From: a bacterium
GTDB taxonomy: Bacteria; BMS3Abin14
DNA length: 13,914 nt
Direction of reading: 5' to 3'
Assembly: GCA_029210545.1 (NCBI GenBank)
Contig: JARGFV010000068.1
Location: 1 to 13,914 of the forward strand
Position numbers and translations under genes: made by a program
The notes under the pieces: model-generated
The model's database searches: none
What the model was told of the DNA's origin: nothing
Seen by the model: the letters and a program-made list of their open reading frames with translations, nothing else
Part shown: positions 2,768-11,906 of the stretch, piece after piece
How the letters are laid out: each line of letters begins with the position of its first letter
How positions within the stretch are numbered: the first letter of the stretch is position 1

Positions 2768-3072
2768 TGTCACTGCGAGCTGTTTCTGAGCGAAGCAGTC
2801 CCATACCCACCGACGCCAGGGTGTGAATTTCCACCACAAGGACGCAGCGATCTTATCCCAGTCATTCCGGAAATCACGCAGGGCGTGATTATCCGGAATC
2901 CATGGACCTCGGACCCGCGCCCGGGGTGACGGCAAGTGGAGACGCAAAGACGCCCTTTCAATTTTGACATGGAAAGGCAAGGATTGGGACAAGAAGTGAG
3001 ATTCAGACCCAGACACCTAAAGGACGGGCGGGGGGCTGAGACTGCTTCGCTCAGAAACAGCTCGCAGTGACA
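2768..3072. repeat. 305-bp unit bounded by perfect 33-bp inverted repeats
   Basis: The left arm at 2768-2800 begins TGTCACTGCGAGCTGTTTC and the right arm at 3040-3072 is its exact reverse complement over 33 bp. The arms hold the TGCGAG...GAAGCAGTC pattern of common intergenic repeats in anaerobic bacteria. The interior encodes no transposase and no credible protein. No target-site duplication is visible just outside the arms. It may be a MITE-like unit, or simply two dispersed repeats landed in opposite orientation. Confidence 0.75.
2864..2899. repeat. Strong 16-bp hairpin inside the inverted-repeat unit
   Basis: ATTCCGGA-AATCACGC (2864-2879) pairs with GCGTGATT-A-TCCGGAAT (2883-2899), leaving a three-base loop and one bulged A. 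Outside it, GTCA at 2861 and GTGAC at 2926-2930 give the 'GTCATTCC...GGGGTGAC' form of a frequent dispersed bacterial repeat. Confidence 0.75.
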
Positions 3073-3100: not shown

Positions 3101-3133
3101 AAAAACTGATCGGCGCGTCACCGCCGATCAGTT
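3101..3133 (-). terminator. Rho-independent terminator of the cytochrome/chemoreceptor operon
   Basis: Read on the minus strand, AACTGATCGGCG (3133-3122) and CGCCGATCAGTT (3115-3104) form a perfect 12-bp stem with a 6-nt loop, followed by more T residues down to 3101. It lies about 48 nt after the stop of the 81-residue gene, the last gene of the run, and is a textbook intrinsic terminator. Confidence 0.85.
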
Positions 3134-3160
3134 GAAACCTGAAATTTGAAACCTGGAACC
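3133..3160. repeat. Heptanucleotide tandem tract (4 units)
   Basis: Four consecutive 7-mers of the form TGAAACC / TGAAATT / TGAAACC / TGGAACC fill the gap between the terminator stem and the end of the 81-residue gene. They share the 7-nt period with the tracts at 12109-12183 and 12682-12765 but not the exact unit. Confidence 0.6.
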
Positions 3161-3180: not shown

Positions 3181-3426
3181 TTAAACAGCTTCTACTCCCC
3201 CCCCCATCTCCAGCTCCCGAAGTTTGTCCTCCAGGTCCCGGACCTTGTTCTTGAGGTTTTCTTTCTCGCCCCCCTGTTCCATAAGGTAGATCCGGTAGGA
3301 CATACCCAGGACCAGGAGAAAAAGGAGCACGGTCCGAAGTTCCGTAAAGGGGATCGTGAAGTCAAGGAACAGCTCCACCGTCCCGAACAGGGCCAGCGCG
3401 ATGGCGATCATCAGCCAGAACAACAT
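3181..3426 (-). CDS. Small membrane protein with coiled-coil tail, unknown function
   Basis: An 81-residue protein I do not recognise. It has two hydrophobic segments (about residues 2-22 and 32-48). A charged, heptad-like C-terminal tail (about 52-74, ENLKNKVRDLEDKLRELEM) is very likely a coiled coil and presumably faces the cytoplasm. A G-rich ribosome site (AAAGGGGGG) precedes the ATG. It lies 56 nt after the big cytochrome gene and just before a strong terminator, so it is the last gene of that operon. It could be an assembly or scaffolding subunit, or a partner of the neighbouring chemoreceptor coiled coil. That is inference from position and shape only. That it is a real gene is likely, given the ribosome site, the terminator and membrane-protein composition. 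Confidence 0.7.
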   Translation of the reverse strand: MLFWLMIAIALALFGTVELFLDFTIPFTELRTVLLFLLVLGMSYRIYLMEQGGEKENLKNKVRDLEDKLRELEMGGGVEAV

Positions 3427-3482
3427 GTTTTCCCCCCTTTGAGCATATTATCAGCTCGGTTGACTATCCCGGATCCCCTGCC

Positions 3483-5537
3483 CTAAGGCCGTGTTACACT
3501 CGCCGCCAGCGCCGGTATCGAGCCGTCGTTGAACTGGAGGTCCTTGTAGGAGTCGTGGAGGAGCTGCACGGCGTACTTCCAGTTGTGGGCGTAAGCCCCG
3601 GGGTCCTTCTTGATGAATTGCCAGTTAAAGGCCGCTTCAGCCAGGGGGGGGTCCCACCCCTGGGACGTATTTCCCCCTGCCGATTCGTTGAGGATAAAGT
3701 ATGGATACGATTCGGTGAAGTAAACCTGAGCGGTCGTGTCCGCATCGTCCGGGGAATCGTAGGCCTCGATGGCGTCGTTCAGGAGCACGGTGAGCATGTA
3801 GGCCACGTCGTTGGCGGCGTCAGTCCCCGTTCCCCAAGGGTTGTCGATGGCCGCCATGGACGGGTGGCAAGGTGTGCAGTAAGTTGTGGCCTCGGTGGAA
3901 CCGTGGGCCATGTGGAAGGTGTGGCCGCCAACCTCCTCCGTGCCCGGCTCCTCGGCCATGTGGCACCGCACGCACCCCAGGGCTGCATGGATATGCTCCC
4001 CTGAATATTCCGATCCCGCGTATTCGTACCCCTTTTCGGCGTAGAGGACAGCGGCCGAAGCCAGGTAGTGCATGTTGCGGAACACGACCGGGTTGGATCT
4101 TGTGGAGGTCATGTAAGACGGGTAAGTGGACGTCTCCATCATGGCCGGATCGTACTTTGAGGCGTCCAGCGCCACGTGGCTGCCGTCCTGACGGCCCTGG
4201 TGGCAATAGACGCAAACGGCGCTGTTGCCGGCTTCCACGTAGGCGAGCGGCTTGCCCCGGTAGTCGAACAGGACCACGGAACCGCTGAACCTCATGTGCT
4301 TATTGCCCGCGGTCGGGTAGTCGACGCCGTCGTGACAGGCGTTGCAGGTGATGAACCCGTCAGAGTCAGGCGGGGTCAGTACCGCGCTGCCGTAGCCCGG
4401 AGCCACCTCGGCGAAACCCATGGAGTTATGACATCTCAGGCAGGATGACCTGAAGCCGTGGTCCACGGCCCCCCAGTTGTCGGGACCGGCAACCGTGATC
4501 TCGTCCCCGTCGGTGCCCAGGGGCCCGGCGATGTTGGGGTGATGGGCCCCCTCGAACCACTGTTCGTTGATGGTCAGGTCAAACTCGTGGGCCCCGTGGC
4601 AGCTGGCCGTGCAGGCGTCCTCCGAGTCGGCGCGCGTCATCCCTGTGTTAGGCGAGGTGTTGGTCAGGTCCACGTACCCGAACATTGCGGTGGGCACAGT
4701 GTAAAAGGTCACTTCGTTGCCGACGTTGGTGACCCATATCTCATTGAAATGGGTGTCGTTGATGGTCCTGTCGCCGTTGAAATAATAGGGGCCGGCATAG
4801 GGGCCGGTTGTGTCAAAGCCGCCCTCACCGTCGGGGCAGCTCAGACTCCATCCGGAGACGTCGGGCGCCGTCCAGACCTCCATTACGGATCCGGCCAGAT
4901 TGATCGTGGAAGCGGTCGGAGCGTTGCATTCGTGGCCCAAGCTGTCCCCGCTCGTGTTCAGCCAGTACCGGTAGGATTCAATGTTATGGTGATCCTCTTT
5001 CCCTGGCCCCCCGTGGCACTCCCCGCACTCATCAAGCGCCGGGATCGCAGCGTAGGGCGGGGAGTTGCCCCCCCAGTGCCCGGCGCCGCTGACATGGCAG
5101 CTTTCGCAGTCGATGAGGGGACGGTTGACCTGCCCCAGGTTGGGGTTGGTAAAGAAGGTTCCGGCGGCGTTGAGGGCCGAAAGAATGACCGTGCCCGTAT
5201 TTCCCTGGTCAATGGGTCCCAGGTGGCAGGGATCGCACCGGTTGAGGTAGTGGGGGTCCCCGACGATGGTCGCGTAATTGTCACCGAAAGTTGAGGAATC
5301 CAGGGGGTTCGGGCGTCCGTCTTCGGCATCGTAATAATCGAAGTTCGAATGCCGGCTCACCAGCCACTCCTCGAAGAACGTTGGCGCATGACACTCGTAG
5401 CACAGGTCCATCCCCAGGGGAGCGGGCACTAAACTTGTCCCGTCCGTACTGCTGCTGTCAAGGGGGTTGCCGCACCCATAAGAAGCGGCAAGAAGGGCCA
5501 GACTGAGGACGACTAGTATTTTCACTGAACCGGTCAT
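3483..5537 (-). CDS. Large multiheme c-type cytochrome lipoprotein (ten haem motifs)
   Basis: A 684-residue secreted cytochrome. The signal sequence (1-21) ends in a lipobox-like ASYGC with C22 as the likely lipidated residue. Nine CXXCH motifs start at C46, C101, C144, C171, C366, C398, C442, C522 and C554, and one CX3CH (C309-T-A-S-C-H314) makes ten haem sites. The first motif is followed by FFEEWLVSRHSNF, reminiscent of cytochrome c554-like proteins. A haem-free segment of about 130 residues separates motifs 4 and 5, and there is a haem-free C-terminus of about 125 residues. An AGGGAG site precedes the ATG. The gene follows the chemoreceptor by 52 nt in the same operon. By context with a DmsE-type decaheme and a beta-barrel, it is the probable outer-surface electron exit protein of a conduit. 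The multiheme nature is certain; surface location is inferred. Confidence 0.93.
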   Translation of the reverse strand: MTGSVKILVVLSLALLAASYGCGNPLDSSSTDGTSLVPAPLGMDLCYECHAPTFFEEWLVSRHSNFDYYDAEDGRPNPLDSSTFGDNYATIVGDPHYLNRCDPCHLGPIDQGNTGTVILSALNAAGTFFTNPNLGQVNRPLIDCESCHVSGAGHWGGNSPPYAAIPALDECGECHGGPGKEDHHNIESYRYWLNTSGDSLGHECNAPTASTINLAGSVMEVWTAPDVSGWSLSCPDGEGGFDTTGPYAGPYYFNGDRTINDTHFNEIWVTNVGNEVTFYTVPTAMFGYVDLTNTSPNTGMTRADSEDACTASCHGAHEFDLTINEQWFEGAHHPNIAGPLGTDGDEITVAGPDNWGAVDHGFRSSCLRCHNSMGFAEVAPGYGSAVLTPPDSDGFITCNACHDGVDYPTAGNKHMRFSGSVVLFDYRGKPLAYVEAGNSAVCVYCHQGRQDGSHVALDASKYDPAMMETSTYPSYMTSTRSNPVVFRNMHYLASAAVLYAEKGYEYAGSEYSGEHIHAALGCVRCHMAEEPGTEEVGGHTFHMAHGSTEATTYCTPCHPSMAAIDNPWGTGTDAANDVAYMLTVLLNDAIEAYDSPDDADTTAQVYFTESYPYFILNESAGGNTSQGWDPPLAEAAFNWQFIKKDPGAYAHNWKYAVQLLHDSYKDLQFNDGSIPALAASVTRP

Positions 5538-5589
5538 GGGCGATCACTCCCTTGCGTTTTTCGGTTAGAAATGTTTTCCATATGTTCCC

Positions 5590-7722
5590 TTATTCCCCGG
5601 CCTTCCGGGGCTTGACTTTCCTGTCACTGTCCACCTTGAACCGTCCGAGCTCCTTGTTGAGGGAGGCCGAAAGGCCGGTAAGCATCTCCGACGAGGAGTC
5701 CACGTTTTTCACGAGGCCGAAGTTCTCCTGGCCCATTTCCTGGAGCGACTCCACCGAAGAGGCGAGGTGGGCCGAAAGGTCCTTCTCCCTGTCGGTAGCC
5801 TGCTGCAGTTTCCCGGCGATCTCCTCGGCCTTGATGACCATGTCGTTGATCATCTGGCTGGTCTTGTTCTGTTCCTCCGTGGACTTGTAGACCTTCTCGA
5901 CCATGGTCTTGGCCTTTTCGATGGACTCCCGGATGAATTTGGCGGTCTGGGCCTCCTCGGAAGTCGCACGGCGGATCACATCGGCACGCTTGGTAAAGTG
6001 CTCGATGCTCGAAGACACCATTTCGCTGGCCGCCGCCTGTTCCCGGGTCACCTGGGATATCTCGCCGGACATCCTGGCTGACTCGCTGGCCGATCCCACG
6101 ATCTTTTCCAGGGCTTCGGTGGCCTGGAGCCCCCGTGTGTGGCCTTCTTCCACGCTCTTGCTGACCCGCTTGACGTAGCCGGTGTAGCTCTTGGCCTCCT
6201 CCTGGACAGAACGGATAAGCCCGGAGATCTTCTTGGTGGAGTCGGTGGTGCTGGCGGAAAGCTCCCGGATCTCGGAGGCGATGACGGCAAAGCTCTTGCC
6301 CTCCTCACCGGCCTGGGCCGAAATGATGGCCGCGTTGAGCGCCAGCAGGTTAGTCTGGTCGGCGATCCCCTCGATGACGGTGACGATCTCACCGATGCTG
6401 TCCACCTTCTCGTTGAGCAGCCTCATGGCCTGCTCCGAGCTCTGCACATCCTCCTTGATGGAAAGGATGCCCTGCAGGGTCTGACTCACCGCCTTGGAGC
6501 CGATATCCTGGGCGTTGATCCGAAGATCCTCGGCGAGTCCCTTGGACTTGTCCACCATCTTCTCCATGTTCTTGACGCCCTCGTTGATCCGGGAGACCGC
6601 GTCCATGGACTCCTCACCCAGTTTGGCCGTCTCGTCAGCCCCCTCGGCCAACTCCCCGAAGGTGGCGGACATCTGCAGGATGGAGGAGGTGATGTTCTCG
6701 ATGGCCTCGTTGATCTCGGCCATGTTCAGGTTGATCTCGCCGATGGCGGAGGTCGATTCCGTGATGGCCGCCGACGACTCGTTGGCCGTGTCGCTGAGTG
6801 TCCCTGCCTGGCGGGACAGGTCCTGGGCAAGGCCGTCCATCTCCTGGATAGCCGTCACGACACCGCCCAACGTCTCCATCTGCTTCCCGAAGGAGGCGGT
6901 GAGGCTTTTGACCACCGAGGTGAGTTCCACCGAGGAGTTCTGCAGGCTCGAAGAGGTTTCCGAAAACCTGCCGATCATCCCGGTGAGTTCCCTGGCCATG
7001 ACCGTGAAGGCCCCGGAAAGCTCCCCGATCTCGTCGCCGCGCTCCGACACTTCCGGTTCGATGATGTTTCCGGCGGATATCTGCCTCGCCGTTCCGGCGA
7101 GGCTGGCCAGGGGCTGGCTTATGATCCGGTTGAAAAAGATGATGATGACAGTCGTGGCCACGAGGAAACCAAGGAGCCCGATGAGAATCAGTCGCCGGTT
7201 GATCTGCCGGAGCTGCTCACTGATGACGTTCTCTTTCAGCCCTACGGCCAGGTACCCCTGCAGGGCGCCCCCGGATTCGATGGCCATGGACAGCTGGTAG
7301 AACCCCAGTCCGCCTGAATTCACCTTGTCCACAACCGGTGTCCTGGTGTCCTGGGCAAAGGCCTCTGGTATCCTGGCGCGCTCACGGACCCAATCCGGCA
7401 TCCCGTCACTGATGTAGAGCACCGATGCCTTCTCGTCGGCCACGTAGATGTACCCGAGGTTGGTATTCCGTTCCACATGCATGGTGAGCTGGCCGCCAAG
7501 ACCCTCCAGTTCGGACAGGTAGATCCCCATGTCCACCGTTTTCTTGATCTCGGCGACCAGGTTCTCTCCCACCAGTGCCGTGGAGGCCATAAGGGCGCTC
7601 TCGAGCTTCCTGTTCACCTCGGAGGAGAAGATGAAGGTGGTCGACCCGATGACCAGGACGAGGACGACAGCGATGAGGCTCGTAGCCTTGGTCTTGAGGG
7701 TAAGGTTGCTGATACGGGTCAT
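5590..7722 (-). CDS. Methyl-accepting chemotaxis protein
   Basis: A 710-residue chemoreceptor. It has TM1 at about 13-33, a periplasmic sensor of about 140 residues that looks like a single Cache-type domain (GYIYVADEKASVLYIS, LQGYLAVGLKE), TM2 at about 177-199, HAMP at about 198-250 and a long cytoplasmic coiled coil. The signalling tip at about 452-490 contains DQTNLLALNAAIISAQAGEE followed by GKSFAVIASEIREL, which contacts CheA/CheW. The 'AAIISAQ' variant in place of AAIEAAR is common in deltaproteobacterial receptors. No CheR-docking pentapeptide is seen at the C-terminus (ends KPRKAGE). The gene starts 14 nt after the stop of the substrate-binding protein gene and is followed by the big cytochrome gene, so it lies within a respiratory operon. 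It may sense the ligand-loaded binding protein or a redox-related signal; the ligand is unknown. Confidence 0.96.
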   Translation of the reverse strand: MTRISNLTLKTKATSLIAVVLVLVIGSTTFIFSSEVNRKLESALMASTALVGENLVAEIKKTVDMGIYLSELEGLGGQLTMHVERNTNLGYIYVADEKASVLYISDGMPDWVRERARIPEAFAQDTRTPVVDKVNSGGLGFYQLSMAIESGGALQGYLAVGLKENVISEQLRQINRRLILIGLLGFLVATTVIIIFFNRIISQPLASLAGTARQISAGNIIEPEVSERGDEIGELSGAFTVMARELTGMIGRFSETSSSLQNSSVELTSVVKSLTASFGKQMETLGGVVTAIQEMDGLAQDLSRQAGTLSDTANESSAAITESTSAIGEINLNMAEINEAIENITSSILQMSATFGELAEGADETAKLGEESMDAVSRINEGVKNMEKMVDKSKGLAEDLRINAQDIGSKAVSQTLQGILSIKEDVQSSEQAMRLLNEKVDSIGEIVTVIEGIADQTNLLALNAAIISAQAGEEGKSFAVIASEIRELSASTTDSTKKISGLIRSVQEEAKSYTGYVKRVSKSVEEGHTRGLQATEALEKIVGSASESARMSGEISQVTREQAAASEMVSSSIEHFTKRADVIRRATSEEAQTAKFIRESIEKAKTMVEKVYKSTEEQNKTSQMINDMVIKAEEIAGKLQQATDREKDLSAHLASSVESLQEMGQENFGLVKNVDSSSEMLTGLSASLNKELGRFKVDSDRKVKPRKAGE

Positions 7723-7736
7723 TTAATCCCAAGCCC

Positions 7737-8696
7737 CTATCTTATGACCTCGGTGGCCCTGTTGAGAACTGGGAAGGGGACCTTGACATCCAGTTTCCTG
7801 GCCTCCCCCATATTGATAATGAAACTGATCCTCGTGATCCTGGCTACCGGGATATCTCCCGGCTTTTTCCCGTTGAGGATGCTCCCGGTGATCTCGGCCG
7901 CCGTCTTGATCGTCTCGTCCATGTCGGGGGCAAGGGTGAACACCACCCCGCCGCCGGTGATACCGGGGTTCTGGGTGGCCGCCGGCTTGTTAAGGCTCGC
8001 CAGGGCCTCATAAACACCGCCCTCCACATCGCACCCCTGGGCCAGGTACAGGAACGGGGCCGGTCCCAGGACCAGGGCGGCCTTCTCCTTGGGAGCTGTC
8101 TGAAGATCAACCTCCAGGAGTTGCAGGCCCTTGCCCGGTGCCATTTTCTTGACGTCATCGTATTGCGCCAGGCTGTCGACGAGGCCCGAATGGTACATAA
8201 GTCCGAGGACCTTGATCCCCGTGGATTCCACGATATTATCCAGAAGGTAATCCGTAGAGGTTCTTCCCGCGATGCCGGTGATGTATTTGCCCGGCTTTTT
8301 CAGGTCCGTAACGATGCCGCTCGCCACAGGATCCCACACGCCGACGAACACAATGGGTGTTTTGCCAGATTCAGAGGCGATCTCCTTTATAGAGGTCCCT
8401 CCCCAAACGACAATGACGTCGGCGCCGATGGCAAGGAACTTCCGGATACCGTTGAGCCGTGACACTTTGTCCGAGCCCGGACGCTGCATGAAGATCTCGA
8501 GGTCCTGGCTGGAAAAGCCCTGGCTCCTCAGGGCAGCCCCGAACTTCTCCTTGGTACTGTCGGAAAAGGCGCAGTCCTTGGGGAGGATCAGCCCCACCGT
8601 CCTGGCGTCAACGGCCGCGGGCGCGGCAGTCAGCGCCAGGGCGGCCAGGAGCGCCGCGGAAACGGCCTTGCGGATGGAAAACATCGATGCTCTCAC
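7737..8696 (-). CDS. ABC transporter substrate-binding protein (ABC_sub_bind/TrpX-like), orphan
   Basis: A 319-residue periplasmic protein with a signal peptide (about 1-31, cleavage after VDA). The mature part fits the ABC_sub_bind family: an N-terminal VGLILPKD strand, the DVIVVWGG strand, and the signature IVFVGVWDPVASGIV leading into GKYITGI. Family members bind small ligands such as amino acids for import. No permease or ATPase gene is near, so this copy may serve as a ligand presenter to the chemoreceptor 14 nt downstream. The start is a GTG at 8696, one base after the stop of the barrel gene, with GAGGTGG just upstream. An ATG four codons later (8684) is an alternative and would also keep the signal peptide. 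This tight junction implies translational coupling with the barrel. Family call strong; sensory role inferred. Confidence 0.9.
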   Translation of the reverse strand: MRASMFSIRKAVSAALLAALALTAAPAAVDARTVGLILPKDCAFSDSTKEKFGAALRSQGFSSQDLEIFMQRPGSDKVSRLNGIRKFLAIGADVIVVWGGTSIKEIASESGKTPIVFVGVWDPVASGIVTDLKKPGKYITGIAGRTSTDYLLDNIVESTGIKVLGLMYHSGLVDSLAQYDDVKKMAPGKGLQLLEVDLQTAPKEKAALVLGPAPFLYLAQGCDVEGGVYEALASLNKPAATQNPGITGGGVVFTLAPDMDETIKTAAEITGSILNGKKPGDIPVARITRISFIINMGEARKLDVKVPFPVLNRATEVIR

Positions 8697-8697
8697 C

Positions 8698-10572
8698 TTA
8701 CCACCTCTTGGTCACCGAAGCGGAAACCTGGTTGACCTTCTCGTCCTCCAGGCCGCTTTCCTTGTCCTCGTAGGAAAGGTTGGCCAGGCGGGCGGAAATA
8801 CCCCACCCTCCATCCATGGTGTAAAGCAGGTCCACAGCCGATTCCTGCTGGACAGCGTCCAGGCCGGAATAATCGCTCACATCGGTGAAGCCGGCCGTGC
8901 TCACATCGTAATCCCCCTCCGCCATAAGATAGGTATATTGTCCGGCAACCTGGAGTTTCTTGCCGGCGCGCCAGACAGCCTGGAGCATGTACTGGGTACC
9001 CTCGGCAGTGTAGGGTACGTCGTCGTCAGAGATGGCCGGAACCGAATCGGCAAGTGTTACGTCGGTGGTGATGTCGTTGGTGAACTGGTAGACCCTGAAC
9101 ACCAGGGAAACAGGGAGCTCAGACGTGTAGGAGACACCCGCTCCGAGGATCTGCCTCTCGTTGACAAGTCCGCTGTCGGAGTTCTCGTCGGAAAACCCCT
9201 TGACATCCGCCGTCAGGCAGACACCGGCCGCCGGGATCCACTGACCCGAAACCATCAGCTTCTGACTGTCGGTAGGGGTCGTCCGGTAGGAAGGGTCTTC
9301 AGTTGTTATGCCGGACCATGTGGCCCTGACCTTTACAGCGGACGACGGCTTCAGCCTGGCGGTCATGCGCACCTCGCTGGATGTCGTCTCGTCGGGCAGC
9401 CCCCACAGTTCGTTGTCCTCCCTCTCGATGGCAGTCATCGTCAGGACGCCCTGGAGATCCACACCGTCGGCGGGATAGTAGTTGACCGTAGCCCGATTGC
9501 AGTTCCGTACGGTGCCGTACCGCAGGGGAGCGCCGTCGGCGAGACGCTGGGCCTGGAGGGCGGCGTCGGGAGAGTCATCCTGGCGATAGGTCTGCCTCGA
9601 ATCCAGAAGGAGGGAAAACCGCGTGTTGGGGCGCCACAGGAACCTGCCGATGGCGTTCTGATACTGTTCCGTAAGAGAGGACTCCGTGTTCTCCCGTTCT
9701 CCGAGGATAACGCCGAGAAACCCGGCAAAACGTCCCGTGTGGTTGGTGCTGACATTCACGGTGTGTTCCGCTACCTTTGTCTCGGGATAGATATTGTGGG
9801 CCTGGGTGCCGGTAAAACCGAAGACGGAATCGTAGTTGAAAACCGGGTCAGGTTGATCATCCTTAAACTGTGTCCCCCTGTACTGGTAGGAAACATCCAC
9901 AAAGCCCGCGTGGCCGCTGCCGCCTAAAGAGATCTGGTCTGTGGTGGTCCGGATCTTCCTCGTTTCCGACACGTGGTGGCACTGGGTGGCGCAGTTCTCG
10001 TTGAGGATGAACTGCTGCTTTTCTCCTTCCACCTGGAACCGGCGGACCGAAAGGGAGGCGTTGGCAGGATAGGCGTGCCATTTGTATTTGATGGAGGCAA
10101 ACTGCTGGGAAAGATCCAACGAGTATTCATCGGCGGGGTCGGTATCATCAGACCAGTACAGGGGTGAGGTGGAGGTATCGTAAGGCCCCGGAAGGTTCAG
10201 GTGTTCGAGGTTCCTGACGAACCTTTCCGACCGGATCACCGCACTAGCGGATGTCCCGTAGTAATCCCCTGTCAGGTTGTAGTAGCCGTCCCCCCCGTAA
10301 TCCAGCGAGAGGTCCAGGAGCCCCAACCCCACAGGTTCGTGGTAGTGGGCCTTGAGCACCGGGTGGGACTCGAGATACCCGTAGGGCATCACCGTTTCCC
10401 CGCCCCCGTCGATGGAGAGCCCGTTGAACCCCACACACCCGCCATAACCCCGCGCAGCCTCGGTACCGCACCCTTCGGCGAGTGTCAACTCCTCGGCAAG
10501 GGCAGGGCCTGCCGGTAAGAGGCACATGCTGACAGACAGGATAGTTAAAGCCGTTTTTCGTTTGATTGTCAT
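8698..10572 (-). CDS. Outer-membrane beta-barrel protein, putative porin of an MtrB/PioB-like electron conduit
   Basis: A 624-residue secreted protein with a signal peptide (about 1-26, ending in GPALA|EE). A long run of alternating amphipathic strands and short polar turns ends in ...SVTKRW, the terminal aromatic typical of outer-membrane barrels. It has a CX3CH at C194-A-T-Q-C198-H199, unexpected in a porin. I start it at the ATG at 10572, which has GGAGGA 6 nt upstream and a proper signal peptide; a further in-frame ATG at 10653 would add 27 residues and bury the signal. The DmsE-type decaheme gene lies upstream, as in MtrA/MtrB and PioA/PioB pairs, so it probably houses the decaheme across the outer membrane. 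It lacks the N-terminal CXXC of Shewanella MtrB. Barrel nature is confident; MtrB/PioB assignment rests mainly on context. Confidence 0.8.
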   Translation of the reverse strand: MTIKRKTALTILSVSMCLLPAGPALAEELTLAEGCGTEAARGYGGCVGFNGLSIDGGGETVMPYGYLESHPVLKAHYHEPVGLGLLDLSLDYGGDGYYNLTGDYYGTSASAVIRSERFVRNLEHLNLPGPYDTSTSPLYWSDDTDPADEYSLDLSQQFASIKYKWHAYPANASLSVRRFQVEGEKQQFILNENCATQCHHVSETRKIRTTTDQISLGGSGHAGFVDVSYQYRGTQFKDDQPDPVFNYDSVFGFTGTQAHNIYPETKVAEHTVNVSTNHTGRFAGFLGVILGERENTESSLTEQYQNAIGRFLWRPNTRFSLLLDSRQTYRQDDSPDAALQAQRLADGAPLRYGTVRNCNRATVNYYPADGVDLQGVLTMTAIEREDNELWGLPDETTSSEVRMTARLKPSSAVKVRATWSGITTEDPSYRTTPTDSQKLMVSGQWIPAAGVCLTADVKGFSDENSDSGLVNERQILGAGVSYTSELPVSLVFRVYQFTNDITTDVTLADSVPAISDDDVPYTAEGTQYMLQAVWRAGKKLQVAGQYTYLMAEGDYDVSTAGFTDVSDYSGLDAVQQESAVDLLYTMDGGWGISARLANLSYEDKESGLEDEKVNQVSASVTKRW

Positions 10573-10588
10573 GCCGATCCTCCAGCCA

Positions 10589-10621
10589 ATATAACACCCT
10601 GGCTTCACCAGGGGGTTATAT
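10589..10621 (-). promoter_or_regulatory. Inverted repeat just upstream of the barrel-gene ribosome site
   Basis: Arms ATATAACACCCTGG (10589-10602) and CCAGGGGGTTATAT (10608-10621) pair over 14 positions with a single mismatch and a 5-nt loop. The structure ends about 5 nt before the Shine-Dalgarno sequence (10576-10584, TGGAGGATC). It has no T-run, so it is more likely a repressor operator or a leader stem affecting translation or mRNA stability than a terminator. A TAGAAT (-10-like) at 10642-10637 would place the transcript start just before it, but no convincing -35 is seen. Confidence 0.5.
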
Positions 10622-10723
10622 CCATCAACCTTCGCCATTCTAAAACCCGGCAATCGGGATGAAGCATAAACCTTGTACCTGCATCCTGCGGCTGTTGGAT
10701 TCCCGCTAAAAAATCACGAAGGT

Positions 10724-10800
10724 TGATGACTTCGCAAAAAGTCATCAATGCGCCCCGCGCGGGGCGCCCAAATCAATGACTCACTCCATAAGTCATTGAT
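10724..10800. repeat. 77-bp triple-hairpin dispersed repeat, copy 2 (inverted)
   Basis: This is the reverse complement of positions 1-77 with 75 of 77 identical bases. It retains all three palindromes, including GCGCCCCGCGCGGGGCGC at 10750-10767. It sits in the spacer between the decaheme and barrel genes, where it could affect transcript processing. Confidence 0.88.
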
Positions 10801-10806
10801 TTGTAG

Positions 10807-10836
10807 GGAAAGGGAAAACGACCATTTTCCCTTTCC
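10807..10836. other. Perfect 12-bp hairpin
   Basis: GGAAAGGGAAAA (10807-10818) pairs with TTTTCCCTTTCC (10825-10836) around a 6-nt loop. It lies about 70-100 nt after the decaheme stop and next to the 77-bp repeat. It may act as a 3'-end stabiliser or weak terminator. Confidence 0.6.
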
Positions 10837-10844
10837 GTGGAGCG

Positions 10845-10866
10845 AAAAGTCCCGGATTGGGCTTTT
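10845..10866 (-). terminator. Possible terminator after the decaheme gene
   Basis: On the minus strand AAAAGCCC, a five-base loop, then GGG-A-CTTTT can pair with one bulged A, ending in a T-rich arm. It is 39 nt after the stop of the decaheme gene. The stem is short and AT-rich, so termination may be partial, which would allow read-through into the barrel operon. Confidence 0.35.
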
Positions 10867-10904
10867 TGCGACCCTATCAAGGTTGAGAAATGCCATATGG
10901 TTAT

Positions 10905-11906
10905 CTACTGGGTCAGGCCGCTTCCCGGGTGCGGCCCTCTCGTGTCGCTTCCATGGATCTGGGTGTGGCAGTTGCTGCATCGTGTGTACATCGCGGCTTT
11001 GACCCCGGCCGAGGGGGACGACGGAGAGGTGAAATCGGTGTGGCCGGCGTGGCACTGAAGACAAAGGAACGGTTCCTGGACGTTCAGCATATCCGCGAAC
11101 ACGGATCCGTGGGGCGAATGACAGGTGGTGCACTCATCGGTCACGTCCGCATGCTCCCACGCGAAGGGACCGATGAGCTGCCCGTGGCAGCTGATGCACA
11201 GCCCTCGCTGGTCCATGGCTTTAAGGCCCCGCTGGTTCTGGGTCCCGTGAGGGTTGTGGCAATCGACACACAGCATTTTGCCTTCAGGAACGGGGTGGCG
11301 GGACACGTGGGAAAAGGCCGCCCGGACATCGTCATGACACCCCATGCACTGCCTGTTGATCTCCACCCCCGCGAGCTTCTGGCGGGAACTCTTGTGCAGC
11401 TTGTGGCAGTCCGAGCAGCTGATCTCGTTGCGGGCGTGATCGCCGAAAGGCCAGTGCTGCATGTTGGCCATGGAGTAGGAACTGTGGCACTTGAGGCAGA
11501 GCATGGAAAGGGCCGCCGCGGGCAGTTCCTTGAGCTGGACGAACTTCGAGGTGTCACACTTGTTGTTTTCGGCGATAAAGTCGGGGTCGATGGCCTCGCT
11601 GGCAGGGCCGTGACAGGTCTCGCAGTTGACGAGGGGCATATCGGTCCCCTCCGCCTTCTGGTGACCGTGAACGCTGTCGGCGAGAAACGCCGCCGCCTGG
11701 TCGTGGTTATGGCAGGCCGCGAGGCAGGTCTCGTTGCCCACGTAATCGGCGAAGAGAGAACCGACGAGTAGCTTCTCGTACTCCCTCATGGGGACGACAG
11801 GCCGGCTGTTCTTCAGATCGGCGCACGAATAGGTCATCAAGGCTGCCACCAAGATGACCCCCAGGGCGGTCGCCCCGTTCGGGATCCTTTTCATCAGCCG
11901 CGGCAT
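10905..11906 (-). CDS. DmsE/MtrA-family decaheme c-type cytochrome
   Basis: A 333-residue secreted decaheme cytochrome. The N-terminus has a hydrophobic signal and a lipobox-like TYSC at C28, so it may be a lipoprotein. Haem motifs start at C61 (CX3CH, CLAACH), C95, C137, C164, C187, C213, C237, C259, C282 and C310: nine CXXCH plus one CX3CH. The second half closely follows the DmsE family pattern: CMGCHDDVRAAFSHVSRHPV, then EGKMLCVDCHNPHG, GPFAWEH and CSNCHTQIHGS. Length and haem count match MtrA-type proteins, which carry electrons inside an outer-membrane barrel. A GAGGAGAGAGGG site precedes the ATG at 11906; an ATG four codons on lacks one. The barrel gene follows after a 332-bp structured spacer. 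Family assignment is secure; which respiratory chain feeds it is not visible here. Confidence 0.95.
   Translation of the reverse strand: MPRLMKRIPNGATALGVILVAALMTYSCADLKNSRPVVPMREYEKLLVGSLFADYVGNETCLAACHNHDQAAAFLADSVHGHQKAEGTDMPLVNCETCHGPASEAIDPDFIAENNKCDTSKFVQLKELPAAALSMLCLKCHSSYSMANMQHWPFGDHARNEISCSDCHKLHKSSRQKLAGVEINRQCMGCHDDVRAAFSHVSRHPVPEGKMLCVDCHNPHGTQNQRGLKAMDQRGLCISCHGQLIGPFAWEHADVTDECTTCHSPHGSVFADMLNVQEPFLCLQCHAGHTDFTSPSSPSAGVKAAMYTRCSNCHTQIHGSDTRGPHPGSGLTQ

Follow-up and report, generated by a model that had tools for sequence, protein, structure and literature searches.

A putative MtrAB-type electron-conduit gene cluster with an embedded solute-binding protein, usually followed by a signalling gene, in five phyla

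Introduction

How solid-respiring bacteria locate an electron acceptor outside the cell, identify it and commit themselves to its use is still an open question. Growth of Geobacter on electrodes requires a chemotaxis-like network (PMC5585712), a Shewanella study ties both a Cache-domain methyl-accepting chemoreceptor (MCP) and the Mtr genes to congregation at solid acceptors (PMC5789149), and activation of chemoreceptors and kinases by loaded solute-binding proteins (SBPs) is an established mechanism (PMC9602780). Of the sensing genes described to date, esn and SO_2240, neither belongs to a conduit locus. Here, we analyze a stretch of 13,914 nucleotides (the window; contig JARGFV010000068.1 of assembly GCA_029210545.1, GTDB lineage BMS3Abin14), in which six genes on the minus strand encode a decaheme cytochrome, an outer-membrane beta-barrel, an SBP, an MCP, a second multiheme cytochrome and a small membrane protein. 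The comparison with other genomes ties the binding protein to one conduit class over five phyla, usually right before a signalling gene.

The closest described relatives of the first two genes are the MtrAB and DmsEF pairs of Shewanella, in which an MtrA/DmsE-family decaheme cytochrome is likewise followed by an MtrB-like barrel, the Mtr complex (6r2q) being the nearest solved structure for both proteins. In the window pair, by contrast, the cytochrome, a predicted lipoprotein, begins its series of motifs with a CX3CH, the barrel has no significant match to TIGR03509, and an SBP gene, usually together with a receptor gene, is joined to the two. OmcKL, known from Geobacter sulfurreducens (GSU2203/GSU2204) and from sulfate-reducing partners of anaerobic methanotrophic archaea (PMC10553843, PMC4070692), represents a sister conduit class: the models that the window pair matches best include NF041028 and NF041027, but the pair falls under both cut-offs (226 versus 325 and 81.6 versus 350 bits, respectively), and the OmcK class has ten CX2CH motifs and an SBP in 0/18 readable loci.

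Among the sensory systems, SBP-dependent chemoreception, exemplified by MBP-Tar and RBP-Trg (PMC9602780), resembles the arrangement proposed here in that a periplasmic SBP is paired with a transmembrane MCP. Unlike those SBPs, that of the window is shared with no importer as far as could be seen, is combined with an sCache receptor and is linked to a conduit operon, and its interaction with the receptor is proposed from the genes. The electrode-sensing network Esn of G. sulfurreducens, considered together with the conduit operon extABCD, again makes chemotaxis-type signalling relevant to a solid acceptor, but the esn genes (GSU1704, GSU2220-2222 and GSU3376) lie outside the conduit operon, and EsnA has neither a periplasmic domain nor a described SBP partner (PMC5585712). 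For SO_2240 of Shewanella, a Cache-domain MCP implicated with the Mtr genes in accumulation at insoluble acceptors, the consulted part of the source places receptor and conduit at separate loci (SO_2240 versus SO_1776-1779) and describes no SBP (PMC5789149). No conduit operon containing both an SBP and an MCP was found in the open-access literature, a scope that does not prove absence, and the words chemotaxis, sensor and binding protein do not occur in a 2014 survey of porin-cytochrome clusters.

Results and discussion

The first two genes resemble an MtrAB-type conduit

The first gene of the run (10905..11906, minus strand) encodes a decaheme cytochrome of the MtrA/DmsE type, which scores 246.1 bits against the DmsE family model TIGR03508 (cut-off 192.2) and for which the closest solved chain in profile searches is the MtrA chain of the Mtr complex (6r2q_A, E 2e-61). 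The protein carries nine CX2CH motifs and one CX3CH motif (Cys61) and is a predicted lipoprotein (Cys28); Cys28 and the CX3CH are invariant across 10/10 aligned relatives. The first-pass annotation of this DNA, made from the sequence alone, had called the first cytochrome of the run decaheme and the second ten-motif; for both, the number ten holds only if CX3CH is included and drops to nine if CX2CH is considered alone.

The adjoining gene (8698..10572, minus strand), which starts at the ATG at 10572 behind a GGAGG ribosome-binding site, encodes the barrel. At the sequence level, this protein reaches 81.6 bits with NF041027 (the GSU2204 family), under the cut-off of 350, and does not match TIGR03509 at E 0.01. 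Its AlphaFold model (pLDDT 81.6) displays approximately 26 long strands, and the top solved match of the model is MtrB (6r2q_B; E 2e-20, TM score 0.72), with the runner-up at E 1e-8 and a TM score of 0.36. The barrel has a CX3CH motif of its own (CATQCH, around codon 194), which is kept in the family barrels and is possibly a haem site within the barrel; OmcK-class barrels (the class is defined below) have one CX2CH in its stead. An MtrA/DmsE-family decaheme cytochrome and an adjoining gene for a large MtrB-type barrel are thus both present, and the two products would form an MtrAB-type conduit that carries electrons across the outer membrane. The cluster was also considered as OmcKL itself, an assignment rejected by the curated cut-offs given above and by the motif count.

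A solute-binding protein accompanies one conduit class

To place the cluster among its relatives, we used a profile of the first cytochrome (A1), which separates class A (nine CX2CH and one CX3CH) from the OmcK class (ten CX2CH). The sampling was non-exhaustive, with one genome per species, and all the evidence is comparative. Across 395 genomes of one large phylum, nine scored 415-509 bits with A1 and the remainder 264 or less; a member of the low-scoring class, locus L137, passes the curated OmcK model with 404.6 bits. Class A was also found in the phyla of G296, G370 and G286 and in that of the window, which brings the total to five GTDB phyla. The order cytochrome-barrel-SBP is present in 21/21 intact class-A loci, originating from 20 genomes (G000, G001, G003, G008, G296, G149, G286, G783, G319, G509, G764, G726, G585, G409, G650, G684, G627, G370, G778 and G779, the last with two loci); the SBP of G778 runs into the contig end and the barrel of G149 is broken into several frames. 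Because the loci were picked by the cytochrome alone, the presence of the SBP is an independent observation; the first ten of these loci also supplied the SBP profile. The corresponding count for OmcK-class loci with readable downstream sequence is 0/18.

The SBP gene of the window (7737..8696, minus strand) encodes a PF04392 protein (85.1 bits, cut-off 25.9) with an apparent Sec signal peptide, and the model of the protein (pLDDT 90) has the full PBP type I fold. The nearest solved structures are 3lkv (Z 33.5) and 3lft, which is TrpX with L-Trp (Z 32.6); together with 6hni, these lie at Z 31-33, and all other matches are at Z 20 or below. When 21 conduit SBPs were placed in a tree with 23 other PF04392 proteins, a 100/100 branch separated all of the conduit SBPs from the rest, and the motif P-x2-[DNG]-x2-S-x2-N, which reads P73-x2-D-x2-S79-x2-N82 in the window protein, is found in 21/21 conduit SBPs versus 0/23 of the others. 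The reverse search of the 395 genomes with the SBP returned, as its top nine hits, exactly the nine conduit-linked SBPs (310-450 bits), followed by a score of 244. In most loci, the SBP gene directly adjoins that of the barrel or overlaps it (the two are 1 nt apart in the window), and the pairwise distances of cytochrome, barrel and SBP are strongly correlated (Mantel r 0.87-0.91, 0/2000 permutations), a correlation which is expected for co-inherited genes and therefore alone cannot separate co-function from shared descent.

Signalling genes follow the solute-binding protein in most lineages

In the window, the SBP gene is followed after 14 nt by a gene (5590..7722, minus strand) for an MCP with a periplasmic sCache-like domain, a HAMP domain (PF00672, 39 bits) and a signalling domain (PF00015, 134 bits); the match to sCache_3_2 is weak in the window protein (E 0.002) and above the cut-off in homologues. 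An MCP gene stands directly after the SBP gene in 11 class-A loci (the window, G001, G003, G008, G296, G286, G783, G764, G585, the first G779 locus and G149, where only the MCP start is present, at the contig end), so that the adjacency of the SBP gene to a gene for a transmembrane MCP, as expected of an SBP-chemoreceptor pair, is conserved. In the second locus of G779 (L203, G779:C33), an MtrC/MtrF-like cytochrome is located between the SBP and the MCPs. A CheY-like response regulator comes after the SBP in 5 loci (G319, G509, G726, G409 and G650), and in G684 (L184, G684:C54) the conduit SBP is followed by a phosphonate-type SBP and then by a histidine kinase. Overall, a signalling gene occurs within the next few genes in 18 of the 20 loci that are readable beyond the SBP. 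As for downstream partners, the genome of the window contains two CheA and further CheW genes.

Since the SBP is present in all 21 loci and the MCP follows directly in 11, the conduit with its SBP represents the constant unit, and the receptor is a frequent but exchangeable addition. The conduit with an embedded SBP and MCP pair described in the first-pass annotation accordingly stands with regard to the SBP and has to be loosened with regard to the MCP, in place of which a CheY-like protein, a histidine kinase or nothing can be found; the run that it reported is real and conserved, with a scope, five phyla, wider than had been noted. PF04392 proteins unrelated to the conduit clade also adjoin an MCP (G116) or histidine kinases (G182, G113, G525 and G319), and the use of PF04392 as a sensor is therefore general. 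The G116 gene (G116:C143, L121/L244) lies 4 nt upstream of its MCP gene, with a multiheme cytochrome gene approximately 5 kb away on the opposite strand.

Several conduit MCPs, including that of the window (from residue 456), have AAII(S/A)AQAG at the hairpin tip, where AAIEAARAG is usual; the altered tip may point to a special CheA partner.

A sensory branch of the conduit and the competing explanations

We interpret the cluster, with moderate confidence and from comparative sequence evidence, as an MtrAB-type conduit with its own sensory branch, in which the SBP would be a dedicated periplasmic sensor that signals via MCP/CheA in most lineages. That the SBP feeds the chemoreceptor, as the first-pass annotation had proposed, is suggested by the adjacency of their genes, and our hypothesis for the stimulus is an external electron acceptor. 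The mechanism that we infer, which includes co-expression of the genes, docking of SBP on MCP, the class of ligand, electron transfer and behavioural output, would be as follows. The lipoprotein decaheme cytochrome would be seated in the 26-strand barrel and pass electrons to the surface, where the second cytochrome lipoprotein would be the probable recipient. The SBP would be a soluble protein of the periplasm that no longer has any importer and that binds a small molecule relevant to the use of the conduit, plausibly a soluble electron acceptor, a shuttle or a cue from the acceptor surface. In the window, the MCP would receive the loaded SBP at its sCache domain and, via a CheA/CheW system, bias movement or attachment; for other lineages, a CheY-like regulator or a histidine kinase would be the output. 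The cluster thus suggests a coupling, in such bacteria, of respiration on external acceptors to sensing and to movement or attachment. It also provides a defined protein for purification and ligand screening, and the class-A cytochrome combined with the SBP motif is a marker for such systems in uncultured genomes.

Several observations weigh against a sensory branch. G370 and G627 have no evident signalling gene after the SBP, which fits a conduit accessory equally well, and the input domains of the receptors vary by lineage (sCache versus CHASE4-like) while the SBP is kept. One motif-bearing SBP has no conduit nearby and is encoded beside an aminotransferase gene (G764:C32, L245:7250-8278). 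Finally, in the genome of the window, a 164-bp hairpin repeat (described below) may disconnect the first cytochrome from the other genes of the run.

The principal rival, because loci without a receptor also retain the SBP, gives this protein a structural or assembly role in the conduit, either as a periplasmic adaptor or chaperone acting on barrel or cytochrome or as a module that delivers a soluble electron carrier to the conduit; receptors would have been recruited secondarily. The invariable occurrence of the SBP in class-A loci, the receptor-less ones included, its strong co-inheritance with barrel and cytochrome, and the contact or overlap of its gene with that of the barrel in most loci all make this a serious possibility, which we nonetheless regard as unlikely: the protein has the complete PBP type I fold, with ligand-bound importer proteins as its closest matches, a signalling gene is near in 18/20 readable loci, and OmcK-class conduits manage without an SBP. 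Somewhat more tentative still is a further proposal, according to which the SBP is an obligate third part of a distinct MtrAB-like class and reports the state of the conduit, such as the availability of an acceptor at the barrel or the binding of an electron carrier of the periplasm, to whatever signalling protein follows; extracellular respiration would then be sensed directly at the conduit.

We consider it doubtful that the sCache domain lets the MCP detect redox or energy state on its own and that the SBP, unrelated to the MCP, stands beside it through nothing more than shared regulation with the conduit. Energy taxis in Shewanella does use Cache-domain MCPs, and the consulted part of the source mentions no SBP partner (SO_2240, PMC5789149), but the SBP and MCP genes lie side by side in 11 loci from several phyla, and pairs of PF04392 protein and receptor recur outside conduits.

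A slightly less probable explanation is that the SBP works with an ABC importer whose genes lie elsewhere in the genome, for instance one for aromatic amino acids in the manner of TrpX, with nutritional co-regulation accounting for the position of the SBP gene in the operon. The nearest solved proteins are indeed importer-type SBPs, including TrpX with tryptophan, and the window SBP shares the PF04392 fold and family with TrpX-type importer proteins; however, it scores 78.3 bits with the TrpX equivalog model, for which the cut-off is 390, and belongs to a clade separate from other PF04392 proteins. As reported in the first-pass annotation, the run includes neither a permease nor an ATPase, and neither was found in the window. 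Behind the PF04392 genes of G679, G754, G570 and G421 lie genes for a permease and an ATPase (in the G754 locus, PF02653 and an ABC ATPase), yet the closest relatives of the window SBP lie in similar conduit clusters rather than beside importers, and neither the window nor any conduit locus contains a match to the importer permease of locus L251 (PF02653). Furthermore, the window SBP is the only PF04392 protein of its genome. A PF06541 search of that genome, in which PF02653 was not searched, gave 0 matches and is uninformative, because PF06541 is the wrong family and the permease partnering importer-type PF04392 proteins is PF02653. On the strength of the TrpX score, the single PF04392 gene and the lack of a nearby permease, we rejected an importer role as the main explanation. 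Separately, in the CheY-type class-A loci L134, L178, L180, L182 and L183, a gene for an ABC-type ATPase of low identity lies directly upstream of the cytochrome gene; no matching permease was found nearby.

Chance neighbourhood or an assembly artefact is scarcely credible and is already refuted by the recurrence of the order: although the window contig comes from a fragmented assembly and G011 and G158 hold collapsed versions of the cluster, the core order is present in 19 further genomes, several of them single-contig (G001, G008 and G650).

The gene run in the window and in its family

All six genes reported in the first-pass annotation are present on the minus strand, and the gaps following the barrel gene measure 1, 14, 52 and 56 nt, in agreement with the earlier values. 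The strong terminator reported at the end of the run was likewise recovered (3103..3134, minus strand), with a 12-bp stem followed by a U-run (-21.6 kcal/mol, z -5.0). The six-gene run with its terminator is genuine, and its order, which might have been peculiar to this assembly, recurs in independent genomes of the family and in other phyla. G003 and G001 have all six genes in identical order; G008 has the first five in order, the fifth being interrupted by a stretch reading X; and in the single-contig assembly of G002, two halves of the cluster are found at separate places. Six further members of the family gave no match to the SBP orthologue or the barrel. In the collapsed clusters, fragments of a cytochrome and an SBP are fused (L038, G011:C285), and a cytochrome is fused to a sequence resembling an MCP C-terminus (L136, G158:C177); both are probably assembly errors or deletions.

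The second cytochrome gene (3483..5537, minus strand) encodes a multiheme lipoprotein with nine CX2CH and one CX3CH (Cytochrome_C7, 41 bits), a probable outer-surface terminal cytochrome. It is kept 3' of the MCP gene in L034, L035 and L036 and is divergent in L037. The last gene of the run (3181..3426, minus strand) encodes a small membrane protein of 81 aa, of which orthologues with 56-79% identity occupy the equivalent place in L034, L035, L037 and L038.

The interval between the first cytochrome and the barrel measures approximately 330 nt in the window, compared with only about 30-40 nt in relatives, and contains a dispersed, strongly folding repeat (10723..10886, minus strand; fold z -7.9). 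The repeat is approximately 164 bp long, forms several strong hairpins and has copies at positions 1-77 of the window and on at least 4 other contigs of the genome (73-98% identity); its presence at the site between cytochrome and barrel is specific to the genome of the window. Because of this interval, co-transcription of the first cytochrome with the remaining genes is less certain here than in the relatives. Downstream of the cluster, the window also contains a 36-bp inverted repeat with arms 97% identical (2768-2803 and 3037-3072).

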